Of a stretch of 64,000 nt of DNA, positions 17,800-56,076 are shown in pieces (position 1 is the first letter of the stretch; every line of letters starts with the position of its first letter). The DNA is taken from contig NZ_HE578923.1 of assembly GCF_000313565.1 (NCBI RefSeq), positions 433,445-497,444 of the forward strand. The letters are read 5' to 3'. The notes under the pieces were generated by a model that was not told the DNA's origin, searched no databases, and saw only the letters and a program-made list of their open reading frames with translations. The stretch comes from Dielma fastidiosa (GTDB taxonomy: Bacteria > Bacillota_I > Bacilli_A > Erysipelotrichales > Erysipelotrichaceae). Both the position numbers and the translations under genes were made by a program.

Positions 17800-18579
17800 A
17801 TGAAACGATATATTTTGGTCATGCTTGGCTTTTTGTTATTCAATTCCTCAGCATTATCTCAAAACGATCTACACAAGATTCATCCGGAAAATGATTATGT
17901 CTACTATTTAGATGCGGCAGTTGAAAATGAAACAGAAGGTGACTGGTTCAAAACAAGGACCGGTTCATTTTACTTGCCTTTTATCAATGTTGATAATGAA
18001 GAAGTATCCAAATTTAATCAGAATCTTGAATTATTGTATTATACATTTTATCCATATGTGGTAAATCATACGGATGATGAACAGGTGTATATTTTAGAAG
18101 CAAAGCAATTTCAATCAGAGGACATGGTAACTGTATTATTTAAGTTCATTAGAACTTACAACTATTATGATAGTATCATAGACACGGCTTTCACAATATT
18201 GCCTGTTAATATTGATTTAAATAATAATCGCATACTTACCCAAGAAGAAGTATTAAAGCGTTCAGGCTACACTATGTCTGAAATGATTGACTATATCGAA
18301 AAACAGATCTTGTTGAAGGGATATTATATTAATGAAACAAATGTATTTCCTTTAGAATTAGAGGACGGAGTTTTGCTTTGGGATAAATATACTCACCACT
18401 TACAACAATCACAGCGGCTTGAGTATTTTAATAGTTCTCCTACTATTCATTTGTTTTTTGATGATAACGGTCAGCTTAATATTATCGTGCCAATCAAGAG
18501 TATGCGTAATCAATTTATTAATCACCAGCCTGTTTATTATGAAAGCTTTGTTATGCCGATAAAGGAGGAAGCAGAATGA
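17800..18579 (+). CDS. Secreted protein related to its downstream neighbour
   Basis: A 259-residue protein with a signal peptide (ILVMLGFLLFNSSALSQ). It has a segment TGSFYLPFINVDNEEVSKFN (near residues 52-71) that closely parallels TGAFIYPFININNEEASQVN in the next protein. The layout (a conserved N-terminal strand, a long middle with FTILPVNIDLNNNRILTQEE, and a C-terminal LFFDDNGQLNIIVPI) resembles DUF3298/RsiV-type extracellular domains. That resemblance is weak. AAGGGGAGG precedes the ATG. It overlaps the next gene by 4 bases (ATGA). Function unknown. Confidence 0.65.
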   Translation: MKRYILVMLGFLLFNSSALSQNDLHKIHPENDYVYYLDAAVENETEGDWFKTRTGSFYLPFINVDNEEVSKFNQNLELLYYTFYPYVVNHTDDEQVYILEAKQFQSEDMVTVLFKFIRTYNYYDSIIDTAFTILPVNIDLNNNRILTQEEVLKRSGYTMSEMIDYIEKQILLKGYYINETNVFPLELEDGVLLWDKYTHHLQQSQRLEYFNSSPTIHLFFDDNGQLNIIVPIKSMRNQFINHQPVYYESFVMPIKEEAE

Positions 18580-36443: not shown

Positions 36444-39350
36444 ATGATTAAAAAAATACTAACAGGATTGCTGGCTTTTGCTTTGTGTGTCAATACGGCA
36501 GGTCAAGGGCTGCCGATCAAGGCCGCTTCTTCACCTGATGAGGTAGCGATACAATTGCATGGCAGCGGAACATTAAATATATATAAGGATGCCAGCTGTA
36601 CGGGTACTGTTTTAAGCTACATTAATATGTCAGGCAGCTATGGCGGCGATATGGCGTTGATTGAAGAAACCGCTTCTGCTTATAAGATAAAGATTGCCGG
36701 TGTGACTGGCTGGGTATCTAAAAACAGCGGTTTAACACCGTTAAGTATCAGTGAGGCTAAATATCCTTCTTATTACGGGGTTAACAGCAGCGGTGAAATA
36801 TATCATCAAATCAGCGGTGATCCTACAATTAAGAAATATATGTCAACACAGGTAATGGGGCCTAAGCCTTCTTATCTGAAAAGCGGTACAAATTATTACA
36901 GCTATGACGGTAATTATTTCTATACCGATTATGAGGATATGATTGAGGATTACCGCAATGATACCTTTAAGCATGCGGTTAATACGGATGATCCTTATTA
37001 TAATTATTATCAGTATCTGCCGGTTCACAGCAAGACGAATCTGAGCGCTGATGATATCAATGATTATGTGCGCAAGAGTTTGGGCTATACATCAATTCCT
37101 TCAAGCTATAAGAGCATGGGCTCAAAGGAGTCGATGCTAGTTGAATCCGGACAAGCTTTCCTTGATGTAGAAGATGTTTATGGTACAAATGCGGCATTAA
37201 TTTTTGCGATTGCTTTAAATGAAAGTGCAAGCGGCCGCAGCGAATATGCGGTTGACCGCAATAATTTGTTTGGTTTGGGTGCTTTTGATGCTTCGCCAAC
37301 CGACGCGAAAAAATATGCTTCTATTGAAAAATGCATTGAAACCTTTGCCAGTATGCATCTGAACTGGGGTTTCTTGGATTATTATGACAGCCGGTATAAC
37401 GGCGGCCATGTCGGTGATAAGAACAGCGGGCTGAATGTAACCTATGCTTCTGATCCATATTGGGGAGAAAAGGCAGCCAGTTACTATTATAAATTGGATA
37501 AATACAGCGGCTTAAAAGATTACGGCAGTGAAACAATTGCTATTCATCCAACGGCTGAACGTATGCCGATCCGTAAGGAAGCATCAACGACATCAGCTTC
37601 GATTGGTTCAGTTGCCAGTGTCAGCAACCTCTCTTATGTCGTACTAGGAGAAGAAGGCAAGTTCTATAAGGTACTGCTTGATTTCCATTTAGATAAAAAC
37701 CGCAATGTTATGAAGCATGATGAAAGTCTTTGGTATGAGCCTTATGATTTCAGTAATAATTATGGCTATATCTTAAAGAGTGATTTAGAAATCGTTAACG
37801 AGGGAAGCGGTTCAACGATTCCTTCCGGTTCAGATAAAGAAATTAGTTTCAGTGACAGTAATTTATTAAAGGCTGTCAATAAAGCGCTGGGCAGTACACG
37901 TTTGGCGGATCAGCCAGTCACTGAGAAAGAAGCGCAGACAATTACGGCTCTGACTATTGATGATGCTGTTGCATCTTTTAAGGGCATCAGCGCGTTAAAC
38001 AAGCTGACTACTTTAGTGATGAATCAAGTACAGGCTGATGCGGATATGAGCGAATTAAGTGAGCTTGGACGCTTAAGTGATTTAAGTGTTACTGTTAAAA
38101 AGAGCGCTGAGCTTGATTTTATCAGTAAATGCACTTCACTGCATAAGCTGACAATCAAGAGTGATTTCATCAGCAGCGGTGATGAATTACCGTCATTAAA
38201 GAAATTGAAGAGTCTGACTACTTTAATTATTGACGGCGGTAAGGTGAGTGATGTTTCTTCATTTGAAACACTGCCGGTCACAAGTATTGAAATTATCAAT
38301 CAGCTGATTGCTGTTGAATTAAAGAATAACTCATTTACAAACCCATTAAAGAACGCGAAGGGCAAGAGTATTGATTTAAGCGATGCTGATGCGAACGCGT
38401 CCTTCAGCTATGAAAATGATTTGGTTACAACTTCTGCCGCTTCGATAACAATTAATTTTGATGAGAACTTCAGCGGTACAGTCAGCCGTTTCAGCGGCAA
38501 GCTGACAAGCGGTACTGCAATTAATGCGAATCTGAATCAGCCTGGCTGGCAGCAGTTTGATACTGAATGGGTTTATGTGGAAAATAGTGCCTTGGTTAAG
38601 GGCTGGAAAAAGGTCGGCGATACTTGGTATTATTTCAAAGAGAATGGTTTAATGGCTAAGGGCTGGATTCAGGACAGTTCTAAGTCATGGTATTATTTGG
38701 ATTATACGAGCGGTAAAATGCTGACTGGCTGGCGGGCTGACGGTTCTAAATGGTATTATCTGAATCCGGCGAACGGCATCATGCAGACAGGCTGGCAGAC
38801 GATTGACGGCGCTCAGTATTATCTGTCACCAATGGGTGATATGGCAGTTGGTGATGTAGTCATCGATGGTCATTCTTATACATTTACCGATAAGGGGGTC
38901 TATGTTCGTGATAACGGTGTTGTCAATGAGCCTATCCCGAATGATCCGAATTCACCGGCCGATCCTATCGATCCAGCACTGCCGGTTAATCCAAGCGAGG
39001 AAGTGCCAAGTGAAAATACACCGATTGAATATCCAAAGGGTACATGGGTAAATAACGGTTCTTATGTGTATCAGCTTGCGGACGGCTCGAACTATAAGGG
39101 CTGGCTGCTGGAAAACAATTGCTGGTATCTGCTGGATTATGATACGGGCGTGATGAAGACAGGCTGGGTAGCTTCAGGCTCAGTTTGGTACTATCTGAAT
39201 CCAGCGAACGGCATCATGCAGCTTGGTAAGTGGATTGATGATAACGGCAGCTGGTATTATGTTGATATTACGGGTGCGATGGTAACCGGCAGCAAGGTTA
39301 TTGACGGTGTAAACTATACGTTTGCGGCAAATGGCGTGTTAGCAGAATAG
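36444..39350 (+). CDS. Secreted modular glucosaminidase with SH3, LRR and wall-binding repeats
   Basis: A 968-residue secreted autolysin-like protein. Order: signal peptide (1-27); SH3-like domain (about 30-100); an endo-beta-N-acetylglucosaminidase domain (about 215-345) with the likely catalytic Glu in ALNESASGRSEYAV and NLFGLGAFDASP; a second SH3-like domain (about 365-450); an internalin-like leucine-rich stretch (about 475-640); two blocks of choline-binding-type repeats (WYYFKENGLMAKGW, SKWYYLNPANGIMQTGW) split by a Pro-rich linker. GGAGG precedes the ATG. Probably cleaves peptidoglycan glycan strands in daughter-cell separation or wall turnover. Confidence 0.88.
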   Translation: MIKKILTGLLAFALCVNTAGQGLPIKAASSPDEVAIQLHGSGTLNIYKDASCTGTVLSYINMSGSYGGDMALIEETASAYKIKIAGVTGWVSKNSGLTPLSISEAKYPSYYGVNSSGEIYHQISGDPTIKKYMSTQVMGPKPSYLKSGTNYYSYDGNYFYTDYEDMIEDYRNDTFKHAVNTDDPYYNYYQYLPVHSKTNLSADDINDYVRKSLGYTSIPSSYKSMGSKESMLVESGQAFLDVEDVYGTNAALIFAIALNESASGRSEYAVDRNNLFGLGAFDASPTDAKKYASIEKCIETFASMHLNWGFLDYYDSRYNGGHVGDKNSGLNVTYASDPYWGEKAASYYYKLDKYSGLKDYGSETIAIHPTAERMPIRKEASTTSASIGSVASVSNLSYVVLGEEGKFYKVLLDFHLDKNRNVMKHDESLWYEPYDFSNNYGYILKSDLEIVNEGSGSTIPSGSDKEISFSDSNLLKAVNKALGSTRLADQPVTEKEAQTITALTIDDAVASFKGISALNKLTTLVMNQVQADADMSELSELGRLSDLSVTVKKSAELDFISKCTSLHKLTIKSDFISSGDELPSLKKLKSLTTLIIDGGKVSDVSSFETLPVTSIEIINQLIAVELKNNSFTNPLKNAKGKSIDLSDADANASFSYENDLVTTSAASITINFDENFSGTVSRFSGKLTSGTAINANLNQPGWQQFDTEWVYVENSALVKGWKKVGDTWYYFKENGLMAKGWIQDSSKSWYYLDYTSGKMLTGWRADGSKWYYLNPANGIMQTGWQTIDGAQYYLSPMGDMAVGDVVIDGHSYTFTDKGVYVRDNGVVNEPIPNDPNSPADPIDPALPVNPSEEVPSENTPIEYPKGTWVNNGSYVYQLADGSNYKGWLLENNCWYLLDYDTGVMKTGWVASGSVWYYLNPANGIMQLGKWIDDNGSWYYVDITGAMVTGSKVIDGVNYTFAANGVLAE

Positions 39351-40550: not shown

Positions 40551-40956
40551 GCTTTTTATATTTTTAAAGATAAAAAGTATATCCCCATATTACGGGTTTA
40601 CGTCATTAAAGAGCTGTATGGCTCTCTATTTTGATGGGCTTCATATCTGTGCAGCTAGTAGAATGCATAAGTGTTATAATTTACTGAACTCACCCTTTCT
40701 TTATGAAGATTCAGTTTCTGATTCATTCAAAAGTTTAGGATGTGGTATAATATAAATATATGTGGGAGTTAACTTAAATGAATGGAGTGCGAATGTGAAG
40801 CAAACATGAAATCTATGGGGGATTCGCACTAATAATTAACGAATAATAATGAAAGCAAAGAGGGTTTATAACTAAAAATAAAGAGTATAAATGTGATTTA
40901 ATGATGATTTTGTTGGCTTATTGGTAATATTATTACTTTTTATGTATAATTTTGCT
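40551..40956 (+). promoter_or_regulatory. AT-rich CRISPR leader region
   Basis: No convincing protein gene. It holds a weak terminator-like AGAGC/GCTCT (40610-40625), two TATAAT -10 elements (near 40675 and 40746), and a perfect 8-bp inverted repeat GTGCGAAT (40787-40794) / ATTCGCAC (40822-40829). The last 120 bases before the first repeat are AT-rich. Position, AT content and the inverted repeat, which from memory resembles the element downstream of cas2 in type I-C loci, identify it as the array leader. Confidence 0.6.
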
Positions 40957-41585
40957 GTCGAGAGTCGTATGACTCTTGTGGATTGAAATATATAAGTAGG
41001 AATGTCTTGATTCAGGATGTAACGTCGAGAGTCGTATGACTCTTGTGGATTGAAATTAAAGCGTATCAGTCAATCTATGGTGAGAGTGAAGGTCGAGAGT
41101 CGTATGACTCTTGTGGATTGAAATTTCTACCCCTAAATACTCCATGAGGTATTCGAAGTCGAGAGTCGTATGACTCTTGTGGATTGAAATTTTGTAGACA
41201 CGATGGATGTCGATGAGTCCAATGTCGAGAGTCGTATGACTCTTGTGGATTGAAATGAGAGATATAGTTAAGCTTAATCCATCAATCTCAAGTCGAGAGT
41301 CGTATGACTCTTGTGGATTGAAATGATGATCAACTGTGACTGATACTGAGCAATCTTGGTCGAGAGTCGTATGACTCTTGTGGATTGAAATATATAAGTA
41401 GGAATGTCTTGATTCAGGATGTAACGTCGAGAGTCGTATGACTCTTGTGGATTGAAATTAAAGCGTATCAGTCAATCTATGGTGAGAGTGAAGGTCGAGA
41501 GTCGTATGACTCTTGTGGATTGAAACTGTTATTATGATGGTGACGAGTACCACGTATTCAGTCAAGAGTCACAAGACTCTTTTTA
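40957..41585 (+). CRISPR. CRISPR array, type I-C-like repeat, 9 full repeats, no cas genes in window
   Basis: Nine 33-nt repeats begin at 40957, 41024, 41092, 41158, 41224, 41292, 41359, 41426 and 41494. They start GTCGAGAGTC, contain the dyad AGAGTC/GACTCT and end GTGGATTGAAAT (the ninth ends GAAAC). Spacers are 33-35 nt. A tenth, degenerate repeat (41561-41585) closes the array. The 3' end ATTGAAAT is that of type I-C repeats, so the array reads left to right with the leader on the left. Spacers 1 and 2 are identical to spacers 7 and 8. No cas gene is present within the window. Confidence 0.97.
41561..41585 (+). terminator. Degenerate last repeat acting as a terminator-like hairpin
   Basis: The final partial repeat reads GTCAAGAGTC then ACAAGACTCTT. 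AAGAGTC pairs perfectly with GACTCTT around a 4-base loop and is followed by TTTT, which the intact repeats lack. Confidence 0.65.
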
Positions 41586-41853
41586 ATTTGTTTTTATATT
41601 TTTTAGGAAAAATATACCAATTTTGTAAATATGTTGAACTATCCTGAATATAAGCATTAAAATAGAAATGGTATCCCTGCTGGCTGAGCAGTCTATGCGC
41701 AGGGTTTGCACTTCTTTGTATATGTTTGTACTTTTTGATTGACCTTTTATCAAAAAAAGCTGTGGAAATATGTTTTTCCTATTTTTAAGTCACTTGAATT
41801 ATGTTATTATATTATAGAATGAAAGTAATAATAGTTAGGGGGCTTCCTAAGAT
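41586..41853 (+). promoter_or_regulatory. Region between the CRISPR array and ftsA
   Basis: No gene is seen. It holds an inverted repeat CCCTGC (41675-41680) / GCAGGG (41699-41704), with a competing CTGCT/AGCAG stem, and an AT-rich promoter-like zone near 41795-41825 (TATTATATTATAG) that probably drives ftsA. Confidence 0.4.
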
Positions 41854-54378: not shown

Positions 54379-56076
54379 ATGATAAGTAAACATGAATTTT
54401 CCGCAATTCGGATACCGATAGAAAAGGATAATCCAGCCATTGTGCGAAATGAAGAATTATGTATTAAATGCGGCCAGTGTCGTAAAGTATGCGAAGAGGA
54501 GATCGCAGTTGGCCGAATGTATGATTTAGCGGCTACTAATGATACAGCGGTATGCATCCATTGCGGTCAGTGTGCGAATGTCTGTCCGGTTAACTCAATT
54601 AGTGAGGTGGATGACACTTATAAGATCAAACAGGCAATGCAGGATCCGTCTATGCGGATCGTTGTTTCAACATCACCTTCAGTAAGAGTCGCCTTAGGTG
54701 AGGAATTTGGCATGCCAGCCGGAACATTCGTGGAGGGCTTAATGGTTGCGGCTTTGCGCAGCTTGGGCTTTCATTATGTTTTGGATACAAATTTTTCAGC
54801 TGATCTGACAATTATGGAAGAAGCAGCTGAACTTGTGAAGCGAATCAGCACGCATGGTACTTTGCCGCAGTTTACGAGCTGCTGCCCGGCGTGGGTTAAG
54901 TTTGTGGAAACCTTCTATCCGGAAATGCGCAATCATTTATCGAGCGCAAAAAGTCCAATCGGCATGCAGGGGCCGACAATTAAAACTTATTTCGCGCAGA
55001 AGCAGAAGCTTGCCGCTGATCGTATTTTTAATGTGGCGCTGACGCCATGCACCGCTAAAAAATTTGAAATTGGTCGGCCGGAGATGAATGCAGCAGCTGC
55101 TGAGCTGGATGATGTAAATCTGCGTGATATGGATGCGGTCATTACTACCCGTGAGCTAGCCCGCTGGCTGAAGGCGGAGGGCATTGATCTGAACGCACTG
55201 AAACCAAGTGAATATGATTCATTTATGGGACCGGCATCGGGAGCTGGTATTATCTTCGGCAACACCGGCGGGGTTATGGAAGCGGCAATCCGGACAGCCT
55301 ATTGGATGCTTACCGATGAGAATCCTAAGGCGGATCTTGTGAAGCTGACACCGGTTCGCGGCATGGATGGAATTCGTGAAGCCGAACTTGAAATTAATGG
55401 GATACCGGTCAGGGCTGCGGTCGTTCATGGAACGGAGAATGCCCGTCAGCTGATGGAAAAGATTAAAGCTAAGGCAGTTAATTATGATTTTGTGGAAGTA
55501 ATGACATGCCGCGGCGGCTGTATTGGCGGCGGCGGTCAGCCTAAGAGTGCGGTACCGATGAATGATGAAATCCGTCAGGCACGTATTGATTCACTGTATC
55601 AAAAGGATGCGGACAGCACGATTCGTTTTTCACATGAAAACCCGCAGATTCAAGCGGTTTATAAAGAATTCTATTCGAAGCCTTTAAGCGAAAAAGCAGA
55701 AAGGTTCCTGCATACTGAATATGCGGACCGCAGTGCGATATTGAATGGTGTGCATCCTAAGGTGACGGATATACTGCCAAAAGCTGAACCGGCATCAAAA
55801 CCAGCGACACGCCGTTTTAAATGTATGATCTGCGGATATGTGGCGGAGATGGATGAATTGCCGGAGGATTATAAGTGTCCGATTTGCTTTCAGGGCAGAG
55901 AGATGTTTGAAGAAATCAAACCCCCAAAGCCTGAAGCTGAACCGGCATCAAAACTAGCGACACGCCGTTTTAAATGTATGATCTGCGGATATGTGGCGGA
56001 GATGGATGAGCTGCCTGAGGATTATAAGTGTCCGATTTGCTTTCAGGGCAGAGAGATGTTTGAAGAAATAGTGTAA
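54379..56076 (+). CDS. [FeFe]-hydrogenase with two tandem C-terminal rubredoxin domains
   Basis: A 565-residue iron hydrogenase. Two [4Fe-4S] clusters sit at the N terminus (CIKCGQCRKVC and CIHCGQCANVC). The H-cluster motifs follow: TSCCPAWVKF near residue 167, TPCTAKKFEIG near 222 and MTCRGGCIGGGG near 375. Two near-identical rubredoxin domains (CMICGYVAEMDELPEDYKCP) lie near residues 476 and 527. Rubredoxin tails suggest electron exchange with a redoxin or sensing partner rather than plain ferredoxin. No maturase genes are adjacent. Subgroup not determined. Confidence 0.92.
   Translation: MISKHEFSAIRIPIEKDNPAIVRNEELCIKCGQCRKVCEEEIAVGRMYDLAATNDTAVCIHCGQCANVCPVNSISEVDDTYKIKQAMQDPSMRIVVSTSPSVRVALGEEFGMPAGTFVEGLMVAALRSLGFHYVLDTNFSADLTIMEEAAELVKRISTHGTLPQFTSCCPAWVKFVETFYPEMRNHLSSAKSPIGMQGPTIKTYFAQKQKLAADRIFNVALTPCTAKKFEIGRPEMNAAAAELDDVNLRDMDAVITTRELARWLKAEGIDLNALKPSEYDSFMGPASGAGIIFGNTGGVMEAAIRTAYWMLTDENPKADLVKLTPVRGMDGIREAELEINGIPVRAAVVHGTENARQLMEKIKAKAVNYDFVEVMTCRGGCIGGGGQPKSAVPMNDEIRQARIDSLYQKDADSTIRFSHENPQIQAVYKEFYSKPLSEKAERFLHTEYADRSAILNGVHPKVTDILPKAEPASKPATRRFKCMICGYVAEMDELPEDYKCPICFQGREMFEEIKPPKPEAEPASKLATRRFKCMICGYVAEMDELPEDYKCPICFQGREMFEEIV
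55781..56069 (+). repeat. In-frame tandem duplication encoding the rubredoxin domain
   Basis: Two 136-base copies (55781-55916 and 55934-56069) start 153 bases (51 codons) apart and differ at four positions that I can count. Each encodes a short Pro/Ala-rich linker plus one rubredoxin domain. Confidence 0.9.

Follow-up and report, generated by a model that had tools for sequence, protein, structure and literature searches.

How does a CRISPR array come to hold one ordered pair of spacers at two separate places? The question is raised by a stretch of 64,000 nucleotides (here called the window) from the draft genome of Dielma fastidiosa, which comprises 3.6 Mb in 95 contigs and is 98.5% complete. 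The window lies within contig C1, and the array stands alone in it: no cas gene adjoins. Its neighbours are a membrane-protein gene with similarity to CPBP proteases and, on the other side, an FtsA-like gene, after which comes an apparent ftsZ. An initial annotation proposed that spacers 1-2 are identical to spacers 7-8 and that the pair reflects either recombination between repeats or an assembly error. We argue that the pair was repeated by exchange or replication slippage between identical 33-bp repeats, a reading to which we give a probability of roughly 0.83. The features concerned, in window coordinates, are these:

40787-40829, plus strand: conserved palindromic leader element GTGCGAATGTGAAG..AACATGAA...GGGGGATTCGCAC, known from four copies in the genome and two leaders of a relative
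40830-40956, plus strand: AT-rich leader, ending in TTTTGCT at the first repeat, as aligned with the leaders of sister arrays
40957-41526, plus strand: CRISPR array of nine 33-nt repeats GTCGAGAGTCGTATGACTCTTGTGGATTGAAAT, the ninth ending in C, from reading of repeats and spacers
40990-41091, plus strand: spacers 1-2 (A-B) with the intervening repeat, first copy, equal to 41392-41493
41125-41358, plus strand: spacers 3-6 (C-F) with the intervening repeats, single copy
41392-41493, plus strand: spacers 7-8 (A-B) with the intervening repeat, second copy, from sequence comparison
41527-41560, plus strand: spacer 9 (G), at the trailer end; missing from the initial annotation, as is the next feature
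41561-41593, plus strand: degenerate terminal repeat GTCAAGAGTCACAAGACTCTTTTTAATTTG...

The whole array thus spans 40957-41593, with nine intact repeats, nine spacers and the degenerate terminal repeat. Repeats of 33 bp fall within the range of CRISPR direct repeats (about 23-50 bp), and the spacers between them are of similar length, 33-35 nt. Flanking them are a leader and, at the opposite end, a degenerate repeat; judged by its terminal repeat and ninth spacer, the array runs from a leader on the left to a trailer on the right. The repeats are of type I-C-like sequence and are all identical except for the last base of the ninth, which is C instead of T. With each distinct spacer given a letter, the order is A B C D E F A B G, seven distinct spacers in all.

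The claimed identity of the two pairs proved exact in direct comparison. All 102 of 102 bases agree between 40990-41091 and 41392-41493, and the match extends to 167 bp (40957-41123 = 41359-41525), covering repeat, spacer 1, repeat, spacer 2 and repeat. Agreement over 69 spacer bases cannot be due to chance. The match ends at the outer edges of the repeats, with no additional matching base on either side, and on the right it halts exactly at the altered base of the ninth repeat, which places the right-hand breakpoint within a repeat. The copies are therefore identical and bounded by repeats, as expected of repeat-mediated spacer duplication. It is this coincidence of the copy boundaries with repeat edges that points to an exchange between repeats.

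What events could produce this order? We took every possible order of the seven distinct spacers and enumerated histories in which blocks could only be duplicated or deleted. No single event of these kinds yields A B C D E F A B G; two histories of two events do. In one, ABCDEFG undergoes duplication of ABCDEF and then deletion of CDEF; in the other, CDEFABG undergoes duplication of CDEFAB and then deletion of CDEF. Under these rules the minimum of two events follows from the spacer order itself; which events took place, and in what sequence, we infer. The simplest history would be the tandem duplication of a six-unit block and the subsequent deletion of C-D-E-F from one copy; a crossover joining two variants of the array would have the same outcome. 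That the two A-B pairs are not adjacent counts against an exchange between repeats, since such a layout takes two events and is rarer than a simple tandem duplication.

A second case within the same genome bears on the question. The genome holds five arrays of one repeat family; the other four lie on contigs C2 and C3 and carry variants of the repeat that differ between arrays by at least 2 bases. In a sister array on C3 (L011:14777-14912) one spacer is present twice, at adjacent positions, which brings the spacer duplications in this genome to at least two. Spacers are all distinct in the type II array that we examined (16 of 16) and in the two type I-C arrays, of 12 and 14 spacers, of a relative, G077 (26 of 26). 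These counts fit the duplication reading, in numbers too small for a test.

Could the spacers instead have been acquired twice, a single invader having supplied both sequences in the same order on each occasion? One A-B copy does sit at the leader end, the site at which new spacers are added. Such a re-acquisition would nevertheless require identical ends and lengths on two occasions, together with the same order, and we found no type I-C Cas1 or Cas4 in the genome. In CRISPRCasdb, where duplication candidates make up about 3% of spacers, 86% of these candidates were classed as duplications and about 1% as reacquisitions (PMC11472070). The doubt that the initial annotation cast on two independent identical acquisitions is thus well founded, and we regard them as very unlikely. 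Copying of A-B by homologous recombination, whether the donor was another strain or one of the sister arrays, is comparably improbable. The five arrays of the repeat family would offer donors within the genome, but A and B occur in none of the others, and the repeats here are identical save for the last base of the ninth, whereas repeats from another array would differ by at least 2 bases.

The assembly itself is a more serious concern. In the true array the A-B blocks might differ in number or order, for example because the A-F loop is repeated more often or because two variants in the sample were merged. The draft is split into 95 contigs, an exact repeat of 167 bp is longer than many short reads, and duplications are known to create bifurcations in assembly graphs (PMC7708916); our reading is drawn from the assembly of one strain. 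However, the array, at position 474401, is in the interior of the long contig C1, away from its ends. In each of the joins leader-A, B-C, F-A and B-G the sequence differs to either side of one 33-bp repeat; each therefore needs reads of its own, and by the same reasoning even a wrong merge requires the F-A and B-G joins to exist somewhere in the sample. The alternative of an assembly error put forward in the initial annotation therefore keeps a small share of the probability, and its other alternative, recombination or slippage between repeats, emerges as the best explanation from the repeat-bounded edges, the second duplication in a sister array, and the failure to find a type I-C Cas1 or Cas4.

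If the pair did arise by exchange between repeats, what machinery does the array still serve? The genome encodes a type I-C effector set of Cas8c, Cas7c, Cas5c and Cas3, in an operon of the order cas5-cas8c-cas7-cas3 on contig C3 (L011:8647-14455) that is followed by one of the sister arrays. Profile matches identify Cas8c (E = 2e-193), Cas5c (1e-20) and Cas3c (2e-96); the Cas7 gene matches best the Cas7b profile, labelled I-B and I-C (5e-53), and also Cas7c (1e-35). Several NCBIfam scores for the operon genes fall below the curated cut-offs. The system resembles type I-C systems in its repeat end GTGGATTGAAAT, in its spacers of 33-35 nt and in the Cas5c, Cas7, Cas8c and Cas3c relatives in the genome. 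It departs from them in the order of the effector genes and in that the cas4-cas1-cas2 set of type I-C was not found.

Profile searches of the 95-contig draft found no Cas4; the only Cas1 found is of type II, beside cas9 and cas2; and the C3 effector operon contains no cas4-cas1-cas2 in this incomplete draft, in which an adaptation operon could sit in a gap. The genome thus seems, from its sequence, to have lost the type I-C genes for adding spacers. Another array is preceded, about 135 bp before its first repeat, by a stub of a canonical-type cas3 gene (271 aa) that stops in helicase motif I; beyond it a short piece of recognisable coding continues in another frame and ends before the first repeat. 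This stub matches the cas3 from a complete canonical type I-C operon in G077 more closely (3e-24) than the operon cas3 of its own genome (1e-4), and for that reason appears to be what is left of a canonical operon that was lost. The stub lies on contig C2 (L009:8976-10218), and the array directly after it has a leader without the palindrome described below and one repeat with an internal deletion.

An effector-only cas5-cas8c-cas7-cas3 operon without adaptation genes is common to the two genera (L011:8647-14455 here, L066:8489-14167 in the relative G077). In G077 its cas8c is split over two reading frames, the complete canonical type I-C operon lies elsewhere in the genome, and a cas4-cas1-cas2 set is present in a separate operon.

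One element of the leader is shared as well. The palindrome GTGCGAA...TTCGCAC occurs in four copies in the genome (with up to 3 mismatches), including those upstream of three arrays on contig C3. Each copy lies about 170 bp before a first repeat, so that four of the five type I-C arrays have one. It is kept in two leaders of another genus (L068:8981-9040 and 18253-18312), with the remaining leader diverged. A search of the window leader against Rfam gave no match; the single match returned lay inside the array, far below threshold.

The array presumably still yields crRNAs for the separate cas5-cas8c-cas7-cas3 effector, with A and B in double dose. Since type I-C adaptation genes were not found, the array has probably lost the ability to gain new spacers. 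More tentatively, and at somewhat less than even odds, an effector-only type I-C system may serve five scattered arrays after loss of its adaptation operon, its memory changing only through duplication and loss of existing spacers, as would be visible here twice.

Spacer duplication has precedent (PMC8047081), and the A-B duplication adds one more instance of a known process, ordinary array dynamics, given that about 3% of spacers were duplication candidates in the published survey (PMC11472070). That study, made with SpacerPlacer, attributed identical spacers occurring twice in one array to replication misalignment between repeats; it classified them on groups of related arrays, whereas here there is one strain. 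The genus is represented by a single genome in the collection, and the repeat occurs in no other genome of the family among 195 searched. The CRISPR locus of Mycobacterium tuberculosis offers another parallel. Its array has stopped gaining spacers, and the changes described in it include the duplication of blocks, copies placed away from where they originated, and a duplicated block minus one internal unit (PMC7708916). There too an array without spacer gain is altered by duplication and deletion from repeat to repeat; unlike the present array, in which none is seen, change there is also driven by an insertion sequence.

The duplication matters little in itself, since catalogues of spacer duplications cover many species. 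Should the adaptation genes prove to be lost, the genome would be a small natural example of array change without acquisition, comparable to that of M. tuberculosis. For strain typing by such arrays, the case is a caution that spacer order is no simple time line.

What do the spacers recognize? Spacer D (41191-41223) matches a phage major head protein gene at 27 of 33 bases, with VDTMDVDE encoded in both, and that gene is a plausible relative for the spacer. It came from scans of viral contigs with words of 17-21 bases, which covered spacers A, B, C, D, F and G; the scans gave this one plausible relative and nothing convincing for A and B. In phage and plasmid collections, spacer matches were at chance level only, and a search of the D. 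fastidiosa genome outside the arrays gave no good match that would indicate self-targeting.

Repetition of another kind is found elsewhere in the window. At 54379-56076 lies a gene that we name iron-hydrogenase-like from its sequence; its C-terminal part carries a tandem duplication of a rubredoxin-like segment, KCMICGYVAEMDELPEDYKCPICFQGREMFEEI, with a period of 153 bp and 97% matches. At 36444-39350 the window encodes a secreted-looking protein of 968 aa, which combines a part resembling peptidoglycan hydrolases with repeats of the choline-binding type.
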